64,000 bases of DNA from an uncultured bacterium (GTDB lineage: Bacteria; Muiribacteriota; Ozemobacteria; Ozemobacterales; Ozemobacteraceae): assembly GCA_900317935.1 (NCBI GenBank), contig ONIU01000013.1:1-64000 (forward strand), written 5' to 3'. The position numbers and the translations under genes are program-made. The notes under the pieces were generated by a model that made no database searches, had not been told where the DNA came from, and saw nothing but the letters and a program-made list of their open reading frames with translations. Below, piece after piece: positions 749-41,120 of the stretch. How positions within the stretch are numbered: position 1 is the first letter of the stretch; each line of letters starts with the position of its first letter.

Positions 749-2161
749 TTAGTAGTCTCTAGGCTTATACTGTTCAAAGGCCTTCTTGTCGAAAGCTCTT
801 CTGTATGCTTCCTGCGGACTGATTTTTCTTGATTTTACCAAGTCCATCAAAGACTGGTCCATTGTCTGCATACCCTGTTGTTTACTGGTCTGCATAATTG
901 ATGTGAGCTGGAATGTCTTGTTATCACGAATAAGATTGGCAACAGCCGGAGTATTTATCATGATTTCAAGAGCACATTCACGACGCTGTCCATCAATCGT
1001 TGGTATAAGCTGCTGAGCTATAATTCCCTGCAGAGCATCTGCCAACTGAGTTCTAATCTGTGCCTGCTGGTGAGCAGGGAAAACGTCAACGATACGGTCT
1101 ACAGATTGAGCTGCAGAAGGAGTATGCAGTGTCGCAAAAACCAAGTGACCAGTTTCAGCTGCGGTAACGGCCAAAGAAATTGTTTCATAGTCACGCATTT
1201 CGCCGACTAGAATGATATCTGGGTCTTCACGCAGTGCTGAACGCAGTGCATTGGCAAATGACTTGGTATTTGGTCCGATTTCACGCTGGTTGACTATACA
1301 TTGTTTATGCTGATGAACAAATTCGATTGGGTCTTCGATTGTCAGAATATGGTCTTGGCGTTCGCTGTTAACCTGGTCAACCATGGCAGCAAGTGTTGTA
1401 GACTTACCAGAACCTGTTGGGCCGGTTACCAGAATAAGACCTTTATTTCGGCGGGCTAAATCACCAAGTACCATAGGCAATCGCAATTCAGCCAAAGTCT
1501 TGATACGTGTTGGAATAACACGGAAAACAGCGCCTAATCCAAGTCTTGTAAAGAAAACGTTACATCTATAACGAGCAACGCCCTTTAATTCATAAGAAAT
1601 ATCTAATTCCAAGTCTTTTTCAAGCTTATCACGCTGGTCATTGCTTAAAAAGTTATAAACAAGACGTCGAATTTCTTTTGGAGAAAGAGGCGGTAAATCT
1701 GTAGGCCATAATTTACCCTGGAGTCTAAGCATTGGGGGTGACCCTACTGTTAAGTGAAGGTCTGACCCTGCTTTATCAACAATCATCTTAAGAAGATCAT
1801 CTATGCCTAGTTCCCCTTCTTGAACTTCTGAACGGCCGCTACTTATAGGCTGTGCTGGAGCTGCTGGCTGAGAAGGAGGAAATCCTCCCATTCCACCCAT
1901 ATTCTGACCCATAGGTCTGGCGGCAGGTCTTGGTGAAGGAGCTGCACCAGGTCTTTGAGAAGGTGGAACCTGAGATGGTGGTTGATTTGCTGGTCTTGGA
2001 GCAGTAGCAGTAGGTGGTCTAGGCGGCTGATAATTCGAAATAGCCGGATTTATCGGCCGCGGCGGCATAGTCGCCGGTTGTGCTGGTTTCGGAGGAGCAG
2101 CAGGAGCTGCTGGTTTTTTATCATCTCCGCCAAATAATTTACCAAAAAAATTATCAGCCAT
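749..2161 (-). CDS. pilT: Type IV pilus retraction ATPase PilT with proline-rich N-terminal extension
   Basis: This hexameric cytoplasmic motor depolymerises type IV pili for twitching motility. From about residue 117 the protein follows PilT closely: GSDLHLTVGSPPMLRLQG, Walker A GPTGSGKS, the Asp box LTIEDPIEFVH, Walker B DPDIILVGEMRD, the His box ATLHT and the C-terminal AIAQQL-type segment. All catalytic motifs are intact. At 470 aa it is about 110 residues longer than usual. The extra part is an N-terminal low-complexity Pro/Ala-rich leader with a short charged start (MADNFFGKLFGGDDKK), probably a flexible tether or localisation tail. It starts 3 nt after the PilB-like gene and is surely co-transcribed with it. 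The start ATG at 2161 overlaps no better candidate. Confidence 0.95.
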   Translation of the reverse strand: MADNFFGKLFGGDDKKPAAPAAPPKPAQPATMPPRPINPAISNYQPPRPPTATAPRPANQPPSQVPPSQRPGAAPSPRPAARPMGQNMGGMGGFPPSQPAAPAQPISSGRSEVQEGELGIDDLLKMIVDKAGSDLHLTVGSPPMLRLQGKLWPTDLPPLSPKEIRRLVYNFLSNDQRDKLEKDLELDISYELKGVARYRCNVFFTRLGLGAVFRVIPTRIKTLAELRLPMVLGDLARRNKGLILVTGPTGSGKSTTLAAMVDQVNSERQDHILTIEDPIEFVHQHKQCIVNQREIGPNTKSFANALRSALREDPDIILVGEMRDYETISLAVTAAETGHLVFATLHTPSAAQSVDRIVDVFPAHQQAQIRTQLADALQGIIAQQLIPTIDGQRRECALEIMINTPAVANLIRDNKTFQLTSIMQTSKQQGMQTMDQSLMDLVKSRKISPQEAYRRAFDKKAFEQYKPRDY

Positions 2162-2164
2162 AGG

Positions 2165-3829
2165 TTAAAACAGCCTCATAAATTCATCTGCAGTAGTAAC
2201 TCCCTTTAAAACAAGGTCTAAAGTTTCTTGTTCAATGCTCTTTATGCCTTGTTTGCGAGCGAAGTTAGAAAAATCAAGATAAGACATTTTGTTTATTATC
2301 ATTTGTCTTAATCTAGCTGTTGCAGGTATAAATTCTGTGACCAGTACTCTGCCGACATAGCCGGTATGGTTACAGGAATCACATCCACAAGCCTGATATA
2401 CTTTTGTATTTAACTGTTCTTCTGGAATAAGTTCTTTTATTTCTTCTGGAATTTCTGCTTCTTTTTTGCAGTTTGGACAAAGCATTCTTACCAAACGTTG
2501 ATTAACAAATCCGCAAAGAGAAGAAGCCATAATTACAGGGTCTACTCCAGTATCAAGCAGTTTTATTATACTACTTGAAGCATCATAAGCAAGAACTCCG
2601 GTAAGAATTGTTTTTCCACCAAGAGCTGCATAGCACATTTCTTCTAAGAGTTCTTTGTTATCTGTTTTATCGACATATATTACATCTGCATCAAGCATTA
2701 AAGATAATCTTAACCCATCAACAGACTTGGCTATATCGCCTGAGCCTACCTGAAGTTGTGTTATGCTTGGCAATGAAGAAACGACAGGGTCTTCAATTGT
2801 AACCAGTTTATGCTTTTCTGGGTCATAACTGCTTATAATACAGTATTGAGTAGTTGTTCTTCCCGATTCTCTTGGACCGCTTACATAAAGTATACCATGA
2901 GTTGTTTGAACAGTTTTCAGTATTTTTTCGATGGATTCTTTACCTGTATTAGAAATTTGTTCAACCAAAGCAGCAATATCGCTCAGGTGAAGAATAACCA
3001 TTTCACCGTTTACTGTCGGATAGAAAATAGACTGTATATTTATCTGTCTGTCAGAGACATTTACTTTAAAATGCCCGACAACAACTCCGCCTTCGCGAGC
3101 CAGATCTTTTTCTGACAACTGAGATAGTTTTTTCAGTCTGCTGATTACATCATGGTGAACTTTGACTGGTATTTCTATTTTGCGGTTCAAAACATTGTTA
3201 GAACGGAATCTGATAAGAACACCTTTATCTGATGGTTCAAAGTGAATTCTGTCTACTTTGTTTAAAATAGCCTGACCTAATATATAGTTGATGATTTTTT
3301 CAGAGCTTTCCATTCCTTTTGGAATGCCCTGTTCCATCTGTTTTGCTTCTGCATCAGTTGCATTTGGATCAACTTCACCAGTATTCCCCACTTCAAGCGG
3401 GCCATAAACAGCATTAAATGTCTGTTCGAAGTCGAATGCAGTACAAATAGAAATTGAAACTACTGCACCGAATTTCCCTTCGAGATATTCGATAGGTCTT
3501 GAATCCAAGGGGTCAACCATACAAACACTGAATTCAGTGCCTGCTTTATATAATGGCATCAATCGATTATCTCGAGCAAAATCAGCAGAAATAAGCTTAA
3601 CAACTTCTGGATTAACTATATCGGGGTTTAAGTGAATGAATGATATATTCAACTGGTTGCCAAGAGCCCAGATAATATCGTCTTCTGTTACTAGCCCCAT
3701 CTGAGAAAGAGCTTCACCCAGCTTAAGACCATGCTCACGCTGAAAGGTCAATGCTTCTTTCAACTGATCTTCGTTAATAAGATTACAATCTATTAGGATA
3801 TCGCCTAAACGTTTCTTTGGTATACTCAT
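2165..3829 (-). CDS. PilB/GspE-like ATPase with degenerate catalytic motifs
   Basis: Domain order is that of a type IV pilus extension ATPase: an N-terminal MshEN domain (about 5-145, beginning KKRLGDIL), N2 domain (about 175-290), then the RecA-like core with the tetracysteine zinc site (C451, C454, C481/C483, C486). The core motifs are altered. Walker A reads GPRESGRTT (residues 318-326) with Arg in place of Lys. The Walker B segment near 380-390 is DADVIYVDKTD, without the usual GEIRD acid. The His-box position reads TGVLAYDA. The fold should persist, but ATP hydrolysis is doubtful. It is followed at 3 nt by pilT. Possible roles are a regulatory subunit of the pilus motor or a c-di-GMP sensor through the MshEN domain. 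A functional PilB is expected elsewhere in the genome. Confidence 0.85.
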   Translation of the reverse strand: MSIPKKRLGDILIDCNLINEDQLKEALTFQREHGLKLGEALSQMGLVTEDDIIWALGNQLNISFIHLNPDIVNPEVVKLISADFARDNRLMPLYKAGTEFSVCMVDPLDSRPIEYLEGKFGAVVSISICTAFDFEQTFNAVYGPLEVGNTGEVDPNATDAEAKQMEQGIPKGMESSEKIINYILGQAILNKVDRIHFEPSDKGVLIRFRSNNVLNRKIEIPVKVHHDVISRLKKLSQLSEKDLAREGGVVVGHFKVNVSDRQINIQSIFYPTVNGEMVILHLSDIAALVEQISNTGKESIEKILKTVQTTHGILYVSGPRESGRTTTQYCIISSYDPEKHKLVTIEDPVVSSLPSITQLQVGSGDIAKSVDGLRLSLMLDADVIYVDKTDNKELLEEMCYAALGGKTILTGVLAYDASSSIIKLLDTGVDPVIMASSLCGFVNQRLVRMLCPNCKKEAEIPEEIKELIPEEQLNTKVYQACGCDSCNHTGYVGRVLVTEFIPATARLRQMIINKMSYLDFSNFARKQGIKSIEQETLDLVLKGVTTADEFMRLF

Positions 3830-6093: not shown

Positions 6094-8256
6094 TCACTCT
6101 AAGGCTTTCAAATGCAGTTTCCTGTCGTTTACTCTTAAAAAGAGTTTCAACTCTCTTGTTAAACCGGAAAAATCTTCTGCATATACGGTAACAGAAGGAA
6201 ATCCATTTGCCTCTAATTCTTCAACGCTTTTAATATTATGATTACGATTTGTTGTATCTTCTAACGTAAAAAGTATATCGCCGTTTATACTTTTTTTGGG
6301 GTCTATATTTATTTCTTTGTTTAAATTTTCATTATGAAAATCCAGCTTTATAAAACCAGATTTAACACCAGTTTCATAAACTTTTGGTCTATCTAAGATT
6401 TTGGCTTCAGTCTGATATACACCATTATTTTCTGTGCTAATATTAGTCCATTTTACGTTGTCATCAGTCCATACATCTAATTTGTATTCTACACCTGTCT
6501 TAAATTGAAAGTCTCCAGAATTTTCAAACAACACAGCCATTTTAGAAAAAGTTCCGAGGCTTTTTCCTAAAGAACCATTTTTTATATTAGACTTGTTATC
6601 GTTAACAATATTGATTCCATCTGTGTCGTTATCCGAAAAGTAGTAGTCCTCAACCCTAACATTTTCTTTTATGAATTTAGGATCAGCGTTTAACAGCAAT
6701 CTGTCAGCAAAAGAACCATTGGTTTTTCTCTTAAAATTTGAGTCATTAATAGAGTAAATAGTAAAGTATGGTTTTGATTCTTTATTTTTTACTATTTCTT
6801 CATGGTTGTATGCATCATCTAATTTTCTTACAAAGAAGTTGTAATCATCCTGATTTGTTTGAAACTTTCCAGAAACTGCTTTATATTTGCTGGAATTGCT
6901 GATTTTAATATCATTATTGCCAAAGCATGGCGGGAAAAACATTTGTTCGTTTGTTTGCGTATTGGTGATTCTAATTATAATATTGGGTCTGTCATTGTCG
7001 CAAACTCTTATTAACCCAGTATTATAACCATTTTCATTATAATCGGAAAGGTCGTTTTTTTCTGGCCAATCTTGAGCTGTATCCATAGTGTTTCCTAAGT
7101 CGCCGGCCTCGGGGTAGCCGTAACCTATATCCGGTTGCTTATATTCGATTTTTGCTACACTTGGATTAACATTTCCTTCACCCTTAGGATTTTTTTCTTT
7201 TGCAAAGACAGAGTATCTGATATAACCGTCAAAGGGTTCCGTAAACCTTACTACATCGTTAAAGTAATTCTTTTTAGAGGAATTGTTTTCGTTTCTATGA
7301 TCTATTTTTACTATTTTTTCTTCTTTGTTCCAGTTTTCTTTATCTATTAATTTTTCATCTTCTTTAGGACATTCTTCAAATCTACCAAAGCTGAATTTGG
7401 AATAAACAACAGGTTCTATATCATCTCTTATATCAAAATTTTCGGTTTTATAATGGTCACAGGAAGTACAAGTGTAATCAGAATTCTTTTCTCCAAGTTT
7501 GGGCAGACCATTTTCAATACTTGGAGGAACCCTGTCTTTTATTGTAATATTTATGTAGTTTTTCTTGTCTATATAATCATCAGCATCTTCGATGGTAGTT
7601 CTTGATAAAAGAGTATTTCTAAACTCTTTGTAAATATTGTTATTTCCAAAAGAGTGTTCTCTTTTGTTCTTTTCGTCTAATACAGTATAATAACCATACC
7701 TGGTTCTTATTATTCTTTCTTTAACTATTGTTTTTTGTTTTCTGCAGTTTTTATCACAGAGTTCAGGGCATTCATTACAAGAAAGAGCATCTGGTTCGTA
7801 TTCTTCAAATTCGGAAACATATCTGTAATTACCATCTAGACAGAGGTATAGCTTGCTTAATTCCGGACTCGTCTGTATCTCACAAGGAAAATCAGAGAAT
7901 TTTTCTGAGCCGTCTTCGTTTGTAATATAGAAATAATCATTCATGAATTCTTCAAAAGTAAGTTCATTTTCTGTATAAATAGGATGAGACTTAAGTTTTT
8001 TAAAAATTTTTCTAGCTTCTGACTTTTTTACAAATTCTTCTGGAATATCTGTTTCGCAGATTATTGGATATTCTGGATTAGAATCCTGTAAAGGGTTTAA
8101 TTTGAGAGTAACATCTTGATAAACTTCTACTTTACGTCCTCCGATATCCTCGAAAACGTCTAATTCAGAAAGGAATTTACCAACAGGATTTGCAGAAAAA
8201 GCTGTGGTAGAAATAAAAATACTTCCAATCAAAAAGCATAGCAGTTTATTTTTCAT
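6094..8256 (-). CDS. Large secreted protein of unknown function
   Basis: The ATG at 8256 is preferred over an in-frame ATG 7 codons upstream because a GGGGAG ribosome-binding site sits 5 nt before it. MKNKLLCFLIGSIFISTTAFS is a clear signal peptide. The mature protein (about 700 aa) is acidic and Asn/Asp/Lys-rich, with two small cysteine clusters (CNECPELCDKNCRK near residue 165 and CTSCDHYK near 265) that could bind metal or form disulfides. The last 60 residues (ENLNKEINIDPKK onwards) look like a beta-sandwich repeat. The family was not recognised. Long, polar, beta-rich sequence suggests a surface or extracellular structural protein. It is flanked by repeat tracts. Confidence 0.7.
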   Translation of the reverse strand: MKNKLLCFLIGSIFISTTAFSANPVGKFLSELDVFEDIGGRKVEVYQDVTLKLNPLQDSNPEYPIICETDIPEEFVKKSEARKIFKKLKSHPIYTENELTFEEFMNDYFYITNEDGSEKFSDFPCEIQTSPELSKLYLCLDGNYRYVSEFEEYEPDALSCNECPELCDKNCRKQKTIVKERIIRTRYGYYTVLDEKNKREHSFGNNNIYKEFRNTLLSRTTIEDADDYIDKKNYINITIKDRVPPSIENGLPKLGEKNSDYTCTSCDHYKTENFDIRDDIEPVVYSKFSFGRFEECPKEDEKLIDKENWNKEEKIVKIDHRNENNSSKKNYFNDVVRFTEPFDGYIRYSVFAKEKNPKGEGNVNPSVAKIEYKQPDIGYGYPEAGDLGNTMDTAQDWPEKNDLSDYNENGYNTGLIRVCDNDRPNIIIRITNTQTNEQMFFPPCFGNNDIKISNSSKYKAVSGKFQTNQDDYNFFVRKLDDAYNHEEIVKNKESKPYFTIYSINDSNFKRKTNGSFADRLLLNADPKFIKENVRVEDYYFSDNDTDGINIVNDNKSNIKNGSLGKSLGTFSKMAVLFENSGDFQFKTGVEYKLDVWTDDNVKWTNISTENNGVYQTEAKILDRPKVYETGVKSGFIKLDFHNENLNKEINIDPKKSINGDILFTLEDTTNRNHNIKSVEELEANGFPSVTVYAEDFSGLTRELKLFLRVNDRKLHLKALE

Positions 8257-8571
8257 AGAACTCCCCAGTAAAAACACATTATAACAATTATATCATATAG
8301 TTTTTGAGTTTACTATGGTTCTAGCTCAGGGCAAACGCAAACTTTTCCTATTATTGATGGTATTTGCAAGAATTCATTTTTATAATATTGTAACGTCTTC
8401 CACTGATTGCGTAGCAATCAGCCCCCACCGTCTTGCCTACGCAATGAAAAAATTTGTTCGAAAACTCATCATAAAAATTTCCCAAAAATATCTTTAAATT
8501 AAAAAATTGTACAATTTAAACCAAAATGATATAATAGCTTCACAAAACTTATCGCAGGATATTTTAAACTC
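8257..8571. other. Divergent intergenic region with palindromic repeat
   Basis: This 315-nt spacer separates divergent genes. At 8403-8421 a perfect 8-bp hairpin (CTGATTGC, loop GTA, GCAATCAG) is followed by CCCCCACCG. Its core ATTGCGTAGCAAT also occurs, reverse-complemented, at 61477-61489 inside hrpB, where CAGCCCCC likewise follows. The rest is A+T-rich promoter DNA; no small ORF is convincing. Confidence 0.6.
8507..8535 (+). promoter_or_regulatory. Sigma-70 promoter of the J-domain/TPR/CSD gene
   Basis: TTGTAC (8507-8512), 17-nt spacer, TATAAT (8530-8535), 36 nt before the ATG at 8572. A weak AGGA ribosome-binding site lies between. Confidence 0.75.
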
Positions 8572-9969
8572 ATGCAAAACTACTATCAGCTTTTGGGTGT
8601 TCCAAACTTCGCCTCATTAGACGAAATAGCTGCGGCTTACAAAAAGAAGTATAATGAACTATTCTCTTCGGATTCACCATTGGCAAACATTCCTAAACTA
8701 AAGCAGTTCAAACAGGCTTTAGACATTTTATCTGACGAAGACCAAAGAGAATCTTACGACCAGGAACTAGGCGAATTTCTAGAGTTAGTAAACGAACAAT
8801 ATGAAGAAGCCGTTTACGATTTAGATAACAGAGATTTGGATTCTGCTGTAGAAAAGCTGAATTGGTGCATGAATCAGAATCCGGGTGAACCAGACTACTA
8901 CGAAACTATGGGGTTGGTTTACCGCTTGAAAGGCGATTTGAAGAACTCCCTAAGATTTTATAAACTTGGTTTGGAAACAGGCCAGCGAAAGGGGTTCTTC
9001 CATCGCTATCTTGGCGATATATACTCACTGATGCACGAAGATGACAAATCAGAAGAAAACTATCTGATTGCAGCAGAAGAATTCAAAGAACTTTTGAAGG
9101 TTGATCCTAAAAATGCTGAAGCTATGGAACAGCTAGGCAATATTTATCATCATATGAAGTTCTTTGAAGAAGCTCTGGATACCTACCAGCAGCTTTTGAA
9201 GAGATATCCATACAATGCTGCTTTTCACCGTGAAGCAGGTAGCATAATGTCTGAAATGGATATGCTTGGTGAAGCTGAAAGTCATTTAATAGAAGCTTTG
9301 AGAATAAAGCCAAGCAATGCTCCTTCATTAATGGAACTGGGTCTCGTCTACTTCAAAAAACGTCTTCTTGGTATGGCTGTTCAGACTTTTCAAGATTGTC
9401 TGAAAGCAGATCCTAACCAGCCTGAAGTTCGACAGCTTATAACCCAGATTGAATCTGTAAGAAAAGAAATAGGCCAAACAGTCGAAGAAATGACTTACGA
9501 CCCGACACCAGACGCTTATGTCGAAGGCAGAGTCAAGTGGTATAATAAAGAATCTGGTTTGGGTGTTGTTACCTGTGAAGAATACCCAGATGTTCTGCTT
9601 CACTATACTGCAATTAAAAATGAAAACGAAGCAGATCTAAAAAAAGGCGATGCAGTGCGCTTTGGTGTTGTAAAAGACAAAATGAGCCCGGTTGCAGTAG
9701 AAGTAGAAAAAATAGGCACCCCATCTGAAGCAGAAGTGCTTCCTGGCAAAATCACAAAATTCGACAACGAAAAGAAAATGGGGCTGATTAAAGGGGCTGA
9801 CGGCAATGACGTCTTTTTCCCTTATTCTGCACTTACAGAAGAAACTCTTAATAGTTTAGCTGTTGGTCTAGATGTCTTATACGAAACAAAAAGCATAATC
9901 GGATTAGATGACAATGCTGCTTCTCAAGCCATCAGAGTCAGACTCCGAAAGAAGAAAACCACAAAGTAA
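8572..9969 (+). CDS. J-like domain / TPR / double cold-shock-domain fusion protein
   Basis: Residues 1-70 resemble a DnaJ J domain (NYYQLLGVPNFASLDEI at the start, ILSDEDQRESYDQ at the end). The HPD tripeptide between helices II and III is absent (segment LFSSDSPLAN), so stimulation of DnaK is not expected. Residues about 80-300 hold six or so TPR motifs. Two cold-shock domains follow: VEGRVKWYNKESGLGVV (about 317) and PGKITKFDNEKKMGLIKG (about 390), the first closer to the RNA-binding RNP1 consensus. The combination suggests a cytoplasmic scaffold that links proteins to RNA or ssDNA. The methyltransferase gene starts 11 nt downstream. Individual domains are well supported; the overall role is unknown. 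Confidence 0.82.
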   Translation: MQNYYQLLGVPNFASLDEIAAAYKKKYNELFSSDSPLANIPKLKQFKQALDILSDEDQRESYDQELGEFLELVNEQYEEAVYDLDNRDLDSAVEKLNWCMNQNPGEPDYYETMGLVYRLKGDLKNSLRFYKLGLETGQRKGFFHRYLGDIYSLMHEDDKSEENYLIAAEEFKELLKVDPKNAEAMEQLGNIYHHMKFFEEALDTYQQLLKRYPYNAAFHREAGSIMSEMDMLGEAESHLIEALRIKPSNAPSLMELGLVYFKKRLLGMAVQTFQDCLKADPNQPEVRQLITQIESVRKEIGQTVEEMTYDPTPDAYVEGRVKWYNKESGLGVVTCEEYPDVLLHYTAIKNENEADLKKGDAVRFGVVKDKMSPVAVEVEKIGTPSEAEVLPGKITKFDNEKKMGLIKGADGNDVFFPYSALTEETLNSLAVGLDVLYETKSIIGLDDNAASQAIRVRLRKKKTTK

Positions 9970-9980
9970 GAGATAAAACA

Positions 9981-10589
9981 GTGAATAACACGATAGCTTA
10001 TTACGATGAAAATGCTGCCGATTTTTGTGATAAACACGATGCTATAAGGCTAGACCCTTTTCATAAAGAAGTCAGAGCACAAATTCCTGCTGGTTCTAAA
10101 ATATTGGAAATAGGCTGTGGCTCTGGTAGAGATGCAGCTCGTTCATTGGCAGACGGCTATGATGTTATTGCTTTAGATGGTTCAAAAGGTTTGTTGGCAG
10201 AAATTCCCAAGCGTCACCCAGAATTAAAAGACAGACTTGTTTTTGGAATTCTACCTTGCAGAATTGATTTTCCAGACGAATATTTTGATGGTTTTTATTC
10301 TGTAGCTTGTTTGATGCATCTCTACGAAAAAGATTTGCCACCTACATTAACAGAACTTTATAGATTGATAAAAAAGGGCGGAAAAGGTCTTGTTTCTATT
10401 CCAACCACTAGAGATGACGTAAACGATAATGGTGTTGATATAAAAGGCAGAACTATGAATGTTATGCCTGTAGAAATCTGGATTAAATATTTCAAAGATG
10501 CCGGATTTTCTGTAACTCATGGGGAAGAAGAACCCGATAGATTAGGTCGTCCTGGGGTTTTCTGGCTTACTTTTGTGTTGACGAAATAA
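9981..10589 (+). CDS. Class I SAM-dependent methyltransferase
   Basis: A 202-aa Rossmann methyltransferase: motif I ILEIGCGSGRDA, the acidic motif II VIALDGS, and a post-motif segment FDGFYSVACLMHL followed by the ELYRLIKKGGKGLVSI strand. This is the Methyltransf_11/25 type common for small-molecule or protein substrates. The start is GTG at 9981, 11 nt after the preceding stop, so it is probably translated from the same message. The methyl acceptor cannot be inferred. It converges on the gene at 10628-11077, and no obvious terminator hairpin lies between them. Confidence 0.88.
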   Translation: MNNTIAYYDENAADFCDKHDAIRLDPFHKEVRAQIPAGSKILEIGCGSGRDAARSLADGYDVIALDGSKGLLAEIPKRHPELKDRLVFGILPCRIDFPDEYFDGFYSVACLMHLYEKDLPPTLTELYRLIKKGGKGLVSIPTTRDDVNDNGVDIKGRTMNVMPVEIWIKYFKDAGFSVTHGEEEPDRLGRPGVFWLTFVLTK

Positions 10590-35507: not shown

Positions 35508-36632
35508 TTATTCAATAGGCTGCAGGTTGAGATCTTCTCTTGTAAGCCCTAAGGAATGCATGGTTCTATAAAAAGTAGCTTTATGAATTCCTAAAATTCG
35601 TGAGGCTTCTGTAATATTGCCTCCGGCTAAACTATATGCATCTATTATTTTTTTCTTTGTTAGGTTTTTCCCTTTGGTGTGTAAAGTAACCACATTGGGT
35701 GTATTTGCGTTTTGATTATTGTGACCTAATAGAATCGGCTGACGGTTAGGCGGAATTATAACATCATGATATTCCTGATCCATAGCGTATTGAGCTGCAA
35801 TTTGTCTTTCCTGGAACCAGTCAGTTAGTGAACGCAGACCAATTACATCTGTCTGATTTTCGGCAAAAAGCCTTTCTATCAGATTTCTGAGTTCTCTGAC
35901 ATTGCCTGGCCATCTGTATTGAGAGAGCAAGTGTATTGCGTCTTTGGTTAAACAAGCTACATTTCTTCCATATTTTTTGTTTAATAATCCAATAAAATGC
36001 TGAATTAAAGGCTCAATATCTTCGATTCGTTCTCTTAAAGGTGGAACATGAATATGGAGTGCACTTAATCTATAGAATAAATCTGAGCGAAAAGAACCGA
36101 TTAATGATTCTTTTTCCAGATTATGGTTGGTTGCTGCAATAACTCTTACATCTACTTTTATAGGTGTTTCAGAACCAACTCTTTCAATTGTTGAAGTTTC
36201 TAAGGCTCTTAAAAGTTTTGCCTGGGAAAGAGGTGGCAAGTCGCCTAGTTCGTCTAAAAATAAGGTTCCGCCGTTTGCTCGTTCGAATCGGCCTTTATGA
36301 GACTTTATCGCTCCGGTAAATGAACCTTTTTCATGACCGAATAATTCACTTTCAAAAAGTGTGTCTGTTATGGCAGAGCAGTTCATGGTAATAAAAGGAC
36401 CATTAGCTCTTTTGCTTAATTTATGAATTGAAGAGGCTATTCCTTCTTTACCTGCTCCTGTTTCTCCTGTTACTAGAACCGGAGCATCAGATTGGGCATA
36501 CATTGCTACTTTTTTGAATACTTGACGCATTGCCTCAGAAACGCCAACCATGTCAAAAAATTCACTCTTACCCTGTATGGTTGGAGGAGGAAGTAACAAT
36601 ACTTTTTTTTCTGTATCTATTCTGTCTGTCAT
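35508..36632 (-). CDS. Sigma-54-dependent transcriptional activator without receiver domain
   Basis: 374 aa. The central AAA+ domain has Walker A GETGAGKE (56-63), the sigma-54 contact loop GSFTGA (103-108; GAFTGA in most relatives), Walker B GGTLFLDELGDL and the arginine-finger region. A C-terminal Fis-type helix-turn-helix follows (KKIIDAYSLAGGNITEASRILGIHKATFYR). There is no N-terminal receiver, GAF or PAS domain, as in PspF, so activity must be controlled by expression or a partner protein. It lies upstream of the zinc-ribbon/AMIN/SLH genes and divergent from the barrel gene. No clear -24/-12 site was found nearby. Confidence 0.93.
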   Translation of the reverse strand: MTDRIDTEKKVLLLPPPTIQGKSEFFDMVGVSEAMRQVFKKVAMYAQSDAPVLVTGETGAGKEGIASSIHKLSKRANGPFITMNCSAITDTLFESELFGHEKGSFTGAIKSHKGRFERANGGTLFLDELGDLPPLSQAKLLRALETSTIERVGSETPIKVDVRVIAATNHNLEKESLIGSFRSDLFYRLSALHIHVPPLRERIEDIEPLIQHFIGLLNKKYGRNVACLTKDAIHLLSQYRWPGNVRELRNLIERLFAENQTDVIGLRSLTDWFQERQIAAQYAMDQEYHDVIIPPNRQPILLGHNNQNANTPNVVTLHTKGKNLTKKKIIDAYSLAGGNITEASRILGIHKATFYRTMHSLGLTREDLNLQPIE

Positions 36633-36758: not shown

Positions 36759-38291
36759 ATGAAAAAAATTAGTAAAAAACTATTATTAACTTTAGCTACA
36801 GCTTTGGCTCTTACGTTGGGCTCAAAGTCTGTAATTAGTTCAGCATTTGCCCAGGAAGCAGATGAAAATACTAGCTTTGAAGGTAATGCTAGAATAAAAG
36901 CTTTTGTTGAAAGCACAAGAAAAGACTATTTTGATAAGGTTTACTCCTATACTAATCCTGTGCCAAGATACGAGAAAAAGCAATACGATAAAAGTTTTTA
37001 CGGAACAGATTCAGATTTGGATTTTTCTTTGAAAACCGATTTGAGTGATGTCAGCTTTTTGGATTTCAAAGAATCTGCATATATAAGACATTATAATAGA
37101 GAAGATCCTTTTAGTATTGATTATACTTCAAATAAGTTCAATGAAATAGACCATAATCTGCGAGTTACTTTGGGCTTATCTGCCGGACCCCACGATTATA
37201 TACAGCTTGATTATATCAACAATATTTATGACGGTGGTGAATTCGAAAGCTTTGATTACAGATCAAATAAAGGGCGAGCCATGGTTGCTCATGACTTTGA
37301 CGAAAGAGCTTGTGCTGCTTTTACTGGTAGTTACGAAGAACGTGAATATCAATCTGACAAAGTTATGAATTATAGAGAAGGCAGAGTAGGTTTTGAAGTT
37401 TCCGGAATAATATCAAGCCGCAGCGAGTATGTTCAGATTGCAAACTCTTCAAGAGGAGAAAAAGCAACTTTTGAAAAGGTTCCTGGTGCAATGGCTGCCA
37501 GAAATGCAATAGATTACTATACTACTTATGTAAGAAATCCAAGAGATGATGATCCTACGGCTAAGTATGTCTTAAATCAGACTCGTGGTGAACTTTATAT
37601 GAGAGGTTTCGGAGAAATTGCTCAGCGAGAAAGAGTCAGGTTAGATACTGATTGTAACGAAATCGTTGGCGGCTTTGAAACAATTTATAAGAGCACTGAA
37701 AACATGAGAGTAAGATTTAATGAAGTATATACAGATCAGGATTATGATAGAGAATCAAATATAAATGATTTGCACGATGGCTTTTCTAATTATGCAGCTA
37801 TGACTGTGGATTATGACTGTACAAAGAATTTTTCTCAAAGTTTTACATACAGTCATGAATTTTATAAGTATAAACACAATGCCGATAAAAACAACAAAGC
37901 AAATTCTGTAACTTATGAAAGCTTATATTGCGGAAAAAATTACCGTACAAGCGTGCTTCTTGGTTCAGTAAAAAGAGAATACTATAATACCGGTGTTTTC
38001 GCTCCTGATGAAACAGAAAGACGAGCCGCTTTCTGTTGCGATTACGATATTATTGAATCTTTAGTATTTAAGTTTAAAGCTGAATATGCTGACCTTAATT
38101 ATCATGATATGCAGGATGAACTATTCTCTAATTACAAGAGAAAAACCTGGAGAATTGCTCTAGAAAAGGGATTAGGTGAATGTTTGTCTCTTGAAGCTGC
38201 ATTCCAGAACAATGTTGAAAGACATAAGGTTTTTGACCAGAATAATGTAGAAGAAAAAACTGTCGGTGTAAGTTTAATAGGAAAATTTTAA
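36759..38291 (+). CDS. Putative outer-membrane beta-barrel protein
   Basis: 510 aa with a Sec signal peptide (KKLLLTLATALALTLGSKSVISSAFA). The mature chain alternates short amphipathic beta segments rich in Tyr/Phe/Asp/Arg and ends in GVSLIGKF with a C-terminal Phe, the BAM recognition signature. Roughly 20 strands are suggested. Examples are HDYIQLDYINNIYDG, RVGFEVSGIISS, VRFNEVYTDQDYD and FKFKAEYADLNYHD. The closest general type is the MtrB/DUF-type or TonB-independent porin-like barrels; no family is certain. A 12-bp palindrome AATTCTAGAATT lies upstream at about 36670. A large terminator follows. Confidence 0.75.
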   Translation: MKKISKKLLLTLATALALTLGSKSVISSAFAQEADENTSFEGNARIKAFVESTRKDYFDKVYSYTNPVPRYEKKQYDKSFYGTDSDLDFSLKTDLSDVSFLDFKESAYIRHYNREDPFSIDYTSNKFNEIDHNLRVTLGLSAGPHDYIQLDYINNIYDGGEFESFDYRSNKGRAMVAHDFDERACAAFTGSYEEREYQSDKVMNYREGRVGFEVSGIISSRSEYVQIANSSRGEKATFEKVPGAMAARNAIDYYTTYVRNPRDDDPTAKYVLNQTRGELYMRGFGEIAQRERVRLDTDCNEIVGGFETIYKSTENMRVRFNEVYTDQDYDRESNINDLHDGFSNYAAMTVDYDCTKNFSQSFTYSHEFYKYKHNADKNNKANSVTYESLYCGKNYRTSVLLGSVKREYYNTGVFAPDETERRAAFCCDYDIIESLVFKFKAEYADLNYHDMQDELFSNYKRKTWRIALEKGLGECLSLEAAFQNNVERHKVFDQNNVEEKTVGVSLIGKF

Positions 38292-38437: not shown

Positions 38438-39217
38438 ATGGTAGCGATAGCTTTTATTGGAACTATACAGCACGAAATAGCAAAAGACGCTGTTCGTAAG
38501 CTTGTTGATACTATAAAAGCTAAAGCGACAAGCGATTCTGTAATCGTTTGTAATGCAGATGGTTTGTTTTTAACTTCATCAAAACTTGGTGAACAGTTAG
38601 AAATGCTCTTTGATAACGGAATAGATTTAGTCATGGTTGGGGAACAGGCATTAAGCCGAAACTGTTGCCGTTCAGTTCTTGCGAAGTCTGATTGGCCAGT
38701 ATTAAGAGGTCTAAACCTGCCGGGAGCTTCAGCTAAAACCAGTATCAAGTATATAAATCACAAAGAAGAGGCTTTTTGGTTTATAAGCACTTGTGGGCAA
38801 AATGGAAAAATACCCGTCGATAATTCCTATATAGAATTAGATGAATTTTTTCAAAACAAAAAAGATGATTTGCCCGTAATTATAAATGAGAGTAGTTCTG
38901 ATTTTAAATATTTACAGGCTTTAACCTGGAGATATTCAAAAAAAGGATGTTCTCTTCTGATATTTGGTTCAGGAACAGGTTTTATGACAATGCCGTCTCT
39001 ATATGCCGATAATTGCTTTTTGCAGTGTGATACGGGGTCAGTTGTTACCGAAAATACAATTTTTGGTATAGAACCCGAATTATGGTGGAAAAAGAATATT
39101 GATAGACGTCCGCTTACCTTGCTTCCGAAATGGGGAGCAGTTAAATGCGACTACACTATAGTAAGATTTGAAAAAGGGAAAATCACTGATTATTTTGTAG
39201 AATCTGTCAGAATATGA
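38438..39217 (+). CDS. YmdB-like phosphodiesterase paralogue lacking metal ligands
   Basis: The 259-aa protein aligns along its length with YmdB/DUF1385-type 2',3'-cyclic nucleotide phosphodiesterases (calcineurin-like fold). Compare AIAFIGTIQHEIAKDAV with FIGDVVG, VIVCNADG with INGENA, and VMVGEQAL with MGNHTW. The positions corresponding to D8, E39, N40, H68, H150 and the HTH pair (GSGTGFMT against GTHTHVQT) are all changed. The later CDTGSVVTENTIFGIE matches the TDVGMTGPYDxxxGxx segment. It is therefore probably catalytically dead. It is 40 nt upstream of a GAF/HD-GYP protein. The -10-like TAAAAT ends 9 nt before the ATG, and no SD is seen. Confidence 0.72.
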   Translation: MVAIAFIGTIQHEIAKDAVRKLVDTIKAKATSDSVIVCNADGLFLTSSKLGEQLEMLFDNGIDLVMVGEQALSRNCCRSVLAKSDWPVLRGLNLPGASAKTSIKYINHKEEAFWFISTCGQNGKIPVDNSYIELDEFFQNKKDDLPVIINESSSDFKYLQALTWRYSKKGCSLLIFGSGTGFMTMPSLYADNCFLQCDTGSVVTENTIFGIEPELWWKKNIDRRPLTLLPKWGAVKCDYTIVRFEKGKITDYFVESVRI

Positions 39218-39257
39218 CTAATCATTTCTGTTATTGAATATTTGAAGGAGTTTCTTG

Positions 39258-41120
39258 GTGTCTGAAGAATTGTCTATAAAACATCAGAGTCTGATTTATA
39301 AGGCTCAGAAAAGTATTCTTGCTCATGGCAAGGATGTTAAAGCTATTCTTGAAGTTTTAGGCAAACTCTCTTTAGACCTTTTCAATAAAGAAGGTTTTTC
39401 TGTTCTTTCTTATGACTTTGCTGCCCAGATGACCAGACCAATATATAAACAGGGCTTCAAAGAAGAAACCTTAAATCATCTTGCTGAAGAATTCACTAAA
39501 CTAAAAGTTGAAAAGAAACCCATAGTCCGCGAACAGATTGTTGACCCAGACGCAGGCAAAATTAATCTTGTTCCTATTGGTGATGAAGAAGATATTTATG
39601 GACAGATTATTTTTGCAGATTCTGAAGATGCAAATAAAGTTGCTGTAACAGAATTTATAGAACTTGCAACAGCATCATTAGGCACATTCCTTGGCGTTGG
39701 TCTTTTACAGCTTCATCTTGAAGAAATGGCTGCTCTTATTGAGGTCAGCCATGTTGTAAGTTCTACTCTTGATTTAAGAGAACTGCTTACAAAGATTATG
39801 AAGACAGCTACCAAGGTTATGAGATGCGAAACTTCAACTGTATATCTTGTAGATGAAGCAACAAATGAATTGTATTTCAGTATAGTTCAAGGCGATTCAA
39901 ATGTAGGCGCTAAACTGAAAGAAATTCGTTTGCCTATGGGAACAGGTTTGGCAGGTTGGTGTGCTCAGAATAACGCTCCTGTAATGGTTCCTGATACAGA
40001 TAAAGACCCTCGTTTCTTTAAGGGAGCTGATAAAAAATCTGGTTTTGTTACAAGATCAATGATTTGTGTTCCAATGTGCTTAAAAGAAAAAGTCATTGGT
40101 GTTCTTCAGGTTTTAAATAGAACCGGAGACATTCCATTCAACGATCATGACCTTGAAACATTAAAAGCAGTTGCTACTCAGGCTGTATCAGCTATTGAAA
40201 ACGCAAGACTTTACGAAAATATTCAGAAGATTTATCTTTCTACAATTGAAGTTTTGGCTACAGCAATTGATGCTAAAGACCCATATACAAGAGGGCATTC
40301 TCGCCGTGTTACACTTTATTCTGTTGCAATTGCAGAACAGTTGGGGCTTTCTCCAAAAGAAATCGAAAACATTAGATATGCCGGTTTGCTTCATGACGTA
40401 GGTAAGATTGGTATTTCTGATAGTATCATCAGAAAACCAGGTCGTCTTACAGACGAAGAATACGGCATAATCAAGACTCACCCCGCTATTGGTGCAAGAA
40501 TATTAAGACCGGTAGAATTTTTAGCAGACAAAATTCCAGGTGTTCTTCACCACCACGAATATTATGATGGCCGCGGATATCCTGATCATCTGTCTGGTGA
40601 AGACATACCTTTAGCTGGTCGCATAATCTGTGTTGCAGACTGTTTCGACGCAATGACGACAAATCGTCCTTACCGCAAAGGTTTAAGCGTAAATACAGTT
40701 ATTGGTGAACTTAATAAGCTTTCTGGTAAACAGTTTGACCCTGTTTGTGTTAAAGCTTTCTTAAGTGCTTTTGAAGCTAAGATTTCTCAGTATTTTGAAC
40801 CTATTGAAGGTTCGGAAGATAATGATATGGCTCTTAAACCTGAAGAAATGGGAACTACTGAAGAACCAGAAAAGATTCAGAAAGATAAGCAGCCTTATCC
40901 TCCAATAAGCTGTGATAGCGACAAGAAGGAAGAAAAGAAACTGGAATCTCAGCCTTATCCTCCGATAAATTGTGACAGCGACAAGAAGGAAGAAAAAAAG
41001 CTTGAGTCTCAGCCCTATCCTCCGATAAACTGTGACAGCGACAAGAAGGAAGAAAAGAAGCTTGAATCTCAGCCCTATCCTCCGATAAACTGTGACAGCG
41101 ATAAAAAAGATAACAAATAA
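39258..41120 (+). CDS. GAF / HD-GYP cyclic-dinucleotide phosphodiesterase with C-terminal tandem repeats
   Basis: GTG 39258 is chosen because GAAGGAG ends 7 nt upstream; TTG 39255 is too close. The N-terminal ~150 residues are a degenerate GAF-like region. A clear GAF follows (about 165-310: VMRCETSTVYLVDEA, AGWCAQNNAPVMVPD, VLQVLNRTGD). Then comes an HD-GYP domain with HSRRVTLYS, LLHDVGKIG, HHEYYDGRGYP and the DAMTTNRPYR signature, all catalytic residues present. It should hydrolyse c-di-GMP or a related dinucleotide. The last ~77 residues are four near-identical 20-residue repeats QPYPPINCDSDKKEEKKLES, each with one Cys. It is likely translated with the preceding YmdB-like gene. Confidence 0.92.
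   Translation: MSEELSIKHQSLIYKAQKSILAHGKDVKAILEVLGKLSLDLFNKEGFSVLSYDFAAQMTRPIYKQGFKEETLNHLAEEFTKLKVEKKPIVREQIVDPDAGKINLVPIGDEEDIYGQIIFADSEDANKVAVTEFIELATASLGTFLGVGLLQLHLEEMAALIEVSHVVSSTLDLRELLTKIMKTATKVMRCETSTVYLVDEATNELYFSIVQGDSNVGAKLKEIRLPMGTGLAGWCAQNNAPVMVPDTDKDPRFFKGADKKSGFVTRSMICVPMCLKEKVIGVLQVLNRTGDIPFNDHDLETLKAVATQAVSAIENARLYENIQKIYLSTIEVLATAIDAKDPYTRGHSRRVTLYSVAIAEQLGLSPKEIENIRYAGLLHDVGKIGISDSIIRKPGRLTDEEYGIIKTHPAIGARILRPVEFLADKIPGVLHHHEYYDGRGYPDHLSGEDIPLAGRIICVADCFDAMTTNRPYRKGLSVNTVIGELNKLSGKQFDPVCVKAFLSAFEAKISQYFEPIEGSEDNDMALKPEEMGTTEEPEKIQKDKQPYPPISCDSDKKEEKKLESQPYPPINCDSDKKEEKKLESQPYPPINCDSDKKEEKKLESQPYPPINCDSDKKDNK
40890..41117 (+). repeat. 60-bp tandem coding repeat (3.8 copies)
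   Basis: Units start at 40890, 40950, 41010 and 41070. The period is exactly 60 bp, with a few silent or single-base differences and one Ser-to-Asn change after unit 1. Being a multiple of 3 it stays in frame and encodes the acidic/basic Pro-Tyr-Pro-Pro repeat at the end of the HD-GYP protein. Confidence 0.95.

Follow-up and report, generated by a model that had tools for sequence, protein, structure and literature searches.

What can be the function of a protein that has the fold of a phosphodiesterase and none of its metal-binding residues, encoded directly before a phosphodiesterase of a different family? The question is raised by a gene at 38438..39217 (+) of the window, by which is meant the whole 64,000-nucleotide stretch of bacterial DNA analysed here. 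The gene begins with ATG and encodes 259 aa with a metallophosphoesterase (calcineurin-like) fold in which all eight metal/active-site positions of YmdB are replaced. YmdB governs the choice between biofilm and motility in Bacillus subtilis, and the available part of PMC6123443 describes its molecular target as still open. Sequence comparison and predicted structures suggest that the non-catalytic protein, here called pseudo-YmdB, is probably a regulatory subunit of the adjoining GAF/HD-GYP protein, a predicted cyclic di-GMP (c-di-GMP) phosphodiesterase.

The sole Pfam family matched by the window protein is YmdB (PF13277; E 6.1e-11, 42.5 bits, cut-off 27). Residues 6-246 correspond to positions 2-242 of the 253 in the profile, which bears out the end-to-end alignment with YmdB claimed in the first-pass annotation. 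The score for the equivalog TIGR00282 is 28.5 bits, far below its cut-off of 254.15, and places the protein outside that equivalog. When solved structures are searched by sequence, the best match is Thermus 2CV9 (E 4e-7), and B. subtilis YmdB (4B2O) is found at E 0.027. The predicted structure, for which the input was an alignment of 23 sequences from its own clade alone, has a mean pLDDT of 92.8 and a pTM of 0.90. Compared with 4B2O, it gives Z 27.2 and rmsd 2.8 over 253 residues, so that the calcineurin-like YmdB fold, which the first-pass annotation had proposed to look for, is present in the model. The four nearest solved structures are four YmdB-family entries (Z 27.1-27.2 across 248-253 residues), and 5'-nucleotidases remain well under them at Z <20. 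The fold is common to the window protein and to YmdB (PF13277, TIGR00282; 4B2O, Deinococcus 1T70, Thermus 2CV9, Mycoplasma 1T71) over the full length, at Z of about 27. The two differ in the eight replaced positions, in the score below the TIGR00282 cut-off and in the gene neighbour, which is HD-GYP in place of rny. By these membership tests, the window protein is a YmdB-fold homologue and not a catalytic YmdB.

According to the portion of PMC10406935 available, the site of B. subtilis YmdB consists of D8, E39, N40, N67, H150, H175 and H177 together with H68/D71. D71 was omitted from the scored positions because catalytic relatives vary there, and H68 was scored as the catalytic residue beside seven metal ligands. 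The remaining eight, namely D8, E39, N40, N67, H68, H150, H175 and H177, are T9, D41, G42, E69, Q70, S152, G179 and G181 in the window protein, so that 0/8 are retained and the change of E39 to D41 is the sole conservative one. It had been claimed that D8, E39, N40, H68, H150, H175 and H177 are all replaced; the alignment agrees, and N67 can be added as an eighth position. By the alignment, the codon of T9, equivalent to ligand D8, lies at 38462..38464 (+) (coordinate from the residue number), those of D41-G42 (E39-N40 equivalents) at 38558..38563 (+), and those of E69-Q70 (N67-H68 equivalents) at 38642..38647 (+). The codons of G179-T180-G181, which replace the metal ligands H175-x-H177, occupy 38972..38980 (+).

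The same loss is observed throughout the clade. Among its 23 copies, D8, E39, N40, H68 and H175 are never retained (0/23), N67 and H177 are each retained in 1/23, and H150 in 6/23. H175 is replaced by G in 23/23 copies and H177 by G in 20/23; E69 and Q70 are each found in 17/23, whereas the positions of D8 and H150 vary freely. All eight residues are retained in every catalytic relative scored (52/52), that is, in 6/6 fused copies (described below), 28/28 stand-alone copies (27 from the phylum of the window and one other) and 18/18 copies from other phyla.

Pseudo-YmdB is present in 23/24 genomes of the window's family (f1), and its reading frame is open and stop-free in all 23. For five pairs of copies, NG86 gives dN/dS ratios of 0.10-0.25; YN00 gives 0.08 and 0.17 for two pairs. 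Recent decay to a pseudogene was considered and is ruled out by the open frames in 23 genomes and by dN/dS of 0.08-0.25 across both methods. Because the frames are open and dN/dS is low, the loss of the site is one old event and not an ongoing decay. Indeed, the clade forms one group in the YmdB tree with 100/100 support and a very long stem (2.93), and it is on this stem that the metal-site residues were lost. Other residues have become fixed: F58, R78, G179, W216 and W217 are found in 23/23 copies and W114 and D155 in 21/23. None of the 50 active rows of the alignment has the clade's residue at W114, D155, G179, G181, W216 or W217, and R78 is found in 4% of them. The codons of the W216-W217 pair (23/23 copies against 0/50 active relatives in the alignment) lie at 39083..39088 (+). 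Within the clade, the eight old ligand positions are conserved slightly above average (permutation fraction 0.047).

The source genome, a relative of Candidatus Riflebacteria (68% identity to the nearest named record, L032), also carries an ordinary ymdB directly after the RNase Y gene, rny. This rny-ymdB pair (L002, G000:C297, 117-2283) has intact metal ligands, and since it occurs in the same genome, pseudo-YmdB is a second, divergent copy. The comparison with Bacillus drawn in the first-pass annotation, in which ymdB follows rny, therefore holds for this genome. Pseudo-YmdB itself does not follow rny; the rny-linked copy sits elsewhere in the genome. Stand-alone catalytic YmdB is present in 23/24 genomes of the family, and RNase Y is encoded directly upstream of ymdB in 10/10 f1 loci examined. 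No match to the YmdB profile was found in families f3, f7 and f8 (8 of 39 genomes of the phylum), and PF13277 is matched in 270/381 genomes sampled across bacteria. In one GC-rich genome outside the phylum (G363), YmdB and FolD (tetrahydrofolate dehydrogenase/cyclohydrolase) lie within one open frame of 585 codons (L130, 1778-3532), which is possibly another YmdB fusion.

The gene which pseudo-YmdB precedes, at 39255..41120 (+) with TTG at 39255 or GTG at 39258 as start, encodes 621 aa and is identified by Pfam as a GAF/HD-GYP protein, as had been stated. The motifs scored for HD-GYP function were GHS, HDxGK, HP, HHExxDGxGYP and DxxDAM, and all are intact in the window's protein, where they read YTRGHS, HDVGK, HPAIG, HHEYYDGRGYP and DCFDAM. 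They are likewise intact in 22/22 readable f1 copies. By sequence, the protein matches PmGH (4MCW), a GAF/HD-GYP c-di-GMP phosphodiesterase, at E 3e-66, with an alignment that extends across both GAF and HD-GYP. The histidine and aspartate ligands of PmGH named in the accessible text of PMC4159591 are present, and a Y is aligned to the residue of PmGH that lies four positions ahead of its first ligand histidine. Unlike PmGH, the window's protein has an additional N-terminal GAF-like region, and its relatives add a fused YmdB domain. Its GAF domain finds its best PDB matches in the GAF domains of the CyaB2 adenylate cyclase and PDE5. The protein is predicted to degrade c-di-GMP.

The first-pass annotation had also proposed to survey whether the pair is conserved in relatives, and it is. 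Neither of the two outcomes which that annotation had named as refuting its proposal, a model lacking the calcineurin-like fold and a neighbourhood that is not conserved, was observed. An orthologous HD-GYP gene lies downstream of pseudo-YmdB on the same strand in 23/23 genomes. In 20 of them it is directly adjoining, with gaps of 31-331 nt, and in the other three (G010, G012, G015) a gene for a CHASE2-class III nucleotide cyclase intervenes (L045 1814-3787, L049 ~929-3132 and L051 ~8177-10307). The cyclase was identified by Pfam for the G010 copy and by homology for the G012 and G015 copies. The sole f1 genome without pseudo-YmdB, G002 (69% complete), is also without the HD-GYP orthologue. 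The upstream side varies even within a genus, as three genomes of one genus (G000, G003, G001) have three different genes there. A 510-aa secreted-looking protein without a Pfam match, encoded in the window at 36759..38291 (+), is the upstream neighbour of pseudo-YmdB in 15/23 genomes and is a looser member of the locus. Chance adjacency and mere shared ancestry of the neighbourhood were considered as explanations of the pairing and are ruled out by the varying upstream genes in these three genomes together with the fusions.

These fusions join YmdB and GAF-GAF-HD-GYP in one polypeptide of 783-845 aa. Within the phylum, 6/15 non-f1 genomes, from three further families, carry them, and so does at least one genome of another phylum, two candidates per genome having been scored at E <= 1e-90. 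Three belong to f5 (G027, G032, G034; 833-839 aa), two to f4 (G026, G030; 783-785 aa), and one to the f2 genome G024, whose gene has the same domain order broken by one in-frame stop. The G024 gene (L105, 4603-6975) is split into two open reading frames by the in-frame TAA, which is either a sequencing error or a real break. In Pfam, the fused proteins match YmdB (E ~1e-81 to 1e-89) followed by GAF and HD_5 domains, and the ligands of both the YmdB and the HD-GYP enzymes are all present. No YmdB other than the fused copy was found in the three f5 genomes. The fusion outside the phylum (845 aa) comes from G122, the sole genome sampled from its phylum, where it follows a gene for a CHASE2-GAF-GGDEF diguanylate cyclase. 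The fusion overlaps the end of that gene (L153, 4542-9340), and a maker and a breaker of c-di-GMP are thus adjoining. A repeat of the search around G122 in 386 genomes gave no hits beyond G122 itself and the Riflebacteria genomes G026 and G006. The fusions were not foreseen in the first-pass annotation; they strongly support the pairing which it had suggested. The YmdB fold family and the HD-GYP family were already known. Literature searches, by listings apart from the papers cited here, found no description of a YmdB-HD-GYP fusion, of a dead YmdB clade or of the linkage of such a clade to HD-GYP.

In the HD-GYP tree, the paired copies, the fusions and one f6 copy (genome G028) form one clade against 17 paralogues, with 99/98 support. 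The fusions, with G122 and the f6 copy, are sister to the f1 copies, in a tree in which long branches are flagged. G122 falls within the fusions of Riflebacteria, and the AU test rejects a group of Riflebacteria alone (p 0.0076), so that a transfer between phyla is likely. The f6 orthologue has no YmdB domain and has a CHASE2-class III cyclase gene upstream.

Taken together, the intact HD-GYP motifs in 22/22 copies and the loss of the YmdB site in 23/23 make the YmdB-fold protein best read as the regulatory part, and the domain fusion and the tight linkage point to a working complex of the YmdB-fold protein and the HD-GYP phosphodiesterase. In such a scheme, a YmdB domain that was catalytic and joined to a c-di-GMP phosphodiesterase would have turned into a non-catalytic regulatory subunit in the window's family, whichever of fusion and separate genes came first. 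The separate proteins would associate in the manner of the domains that share one chain in the fusions. Either the old pocket (E69, Q70, G179-x-G181, D155) or the W216-W217 helix may now bind either the partner or a nucleotide that is left uncut, and such binding would set the activity of the HD-GYP protein. A cyclic mononucleotide would be the likely input signal, as suggested by the in vitro activity of YmdB, by the resemblance of the GAF domain to cyclic-nucleotide-binding GAF domains and by the cyclase gene in three operons. In this regard, the part of PMC6123443 consulted reports that YmdB cuts cyclic mononucleotides in vitro, and the GAF of the fusion model is close to a GAF-cAMP complex of Lcd1 (Z 20.7). 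Residues 291-622 of the model, compared with tandem GAF structures, gave matches among those listed with large rmsd, and the first GAF may be taken only as a lead. Some observations count against a regulatory subunit. The f6 orthologue shows that the module can do without YmdB, and the full-length fusion model (pTM 0.40) is too uncertain for an interface to be read from it. In addition, pseudo-YmdB and the fusions are grouped weakly in the YmdB tree (88/44), and the AU test (p 0.34) does not reject derivation of pseudo-YmdB from the stand-alone copy of the same family.

The latter result bears on another account, in which pseudo-YmdB forms a mixed oligomer with the rny-linked catalytic YmdB of the cell and acts there as the regulatory or dominant-negative subunit, the adjacency to HD-GYP reflecting shared transcription only. 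The catalytic protein with which it would assemble is encoded in 23/24 genomes of the family, with RNase Y upstream in all 10 f1 loci examined. A common origin of the two is compatible with the AU test, and evolutionary distances of pseudo-YmdB track stand-alone YmdB (r 0.87) as well as HD-GYP (r 0.86), so that the HD-GYP partner is not singled out. This account is nevertheless considered unlikely, as the gene keeps with HD-GYP in 23/23 genomes, its fused relatives have HD-GYP as their other part, and three f5 genomes show the fused copy as their only YmdB.

It is also improbable that pseudo-YmdB has gained a metal-independent or rearranged catalysis and is no pseudo-enzyme at all. The glycines which replace H175 (23/23) and H177 (20/23) leave no obvious catalytic side chains there, and the positions of D8 and H150 are free to vary; what speaks for such a change is that new residues have become established around the former pocket (E69 and Q70 in 17/23 each, G179 in 23/23, D155 in 21/23). 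The precedent is the lasso peptide epimerase MslH, whose calcineurin-like fold is nearest YmdB and whose metal site is changed, as in pseudo-YmdB, and which shows that the fold can change its chemistry (PMC10406935, in the text available); unlike pseudo-YmdB, MslH retains several of the ligands and works as an active metalloenzyme. Similarly improbable is that pseudo-YmdB is only transcribed along with its neighbour and serves an unrelated function in a surface or polysaccharide cluster, its linkage being due to shared ancestry and operon selection. Several copies do have genes for glycosyltransferases, polysaccharide synthesis and secreted proteins around them. The HD-GYP neighbour, however, stays constant while the upstream genes differ within a genus (G000, G003, G001), and fusions to the same type of HD-GYP occur in different surroundings.

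For the favoured reading of pseudo-YmdB as a regulatory subunit of the HD-GYP phosphodiesterase, an analogy is offered by VPS29 of the retromer, in which a metallophosphoesterase fold serves as a non-catalytic protein scaffold (PMC3101248, in the sections available) and which is among the Foldseek matches. VPS29 is eukaryotic, retains low-affinity metal binding and has different partners, and it is an analogue and not a relative in function. A more tentative extension, which we regard as possible although rather doubtful, is that the fusion acts as an enzyme on two messengers, in which YmdB would cut the cyclic mononucleotide sensed by the tandem GAF domains and HD-GYP would cut c-di-GMP, with the YmdB part having become a separate non-catalytic sensor or switch of HD-GYP in f1. 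If this were true, the fusion would couple two second-messenger pathways in one polypeptide, and the locus would provide a natural before/after series from an enzyme domain to a regulatory pseudo-enzyme. More generally, fusions with intact sites and a dead copy tied to the same phosphodiesterase lead to a testable proposal, in which HD-family enzymes would be targets or partners of YmdB-type domains in messenger signalling. The clade also lets the origin of a bacterial pseudo-enzyme be followed as a natural series, with catalytic outgroups within the same genomes.

Some minor features of the locus may be recorded. Divergent from it, at 35508-36632 (-) of the window, lies a gene for a sigma-54 activator in which Pfam recognises AAA+ and HTH segments and no receiver domain. 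The 37 nt that separate pseudo-YmdB from the HD-GYP gene contain, by reading of the sequence, a ribosome-binding-like site, AAGGAG, at 39245..39250 (+); no terminator-like site was found in the gap (39218-39254), and the promoter scan was near background. The part of the HD-GYP gene which encodes the C-terminal tail carries a 60-bp tandem repeat in 3.5 copies (window 40890-41101), with a unit of approximately SQPYPPINCDSDKKEEKKLE, and SQPYPP-like tails are also found in the alignment consensus of relatives.
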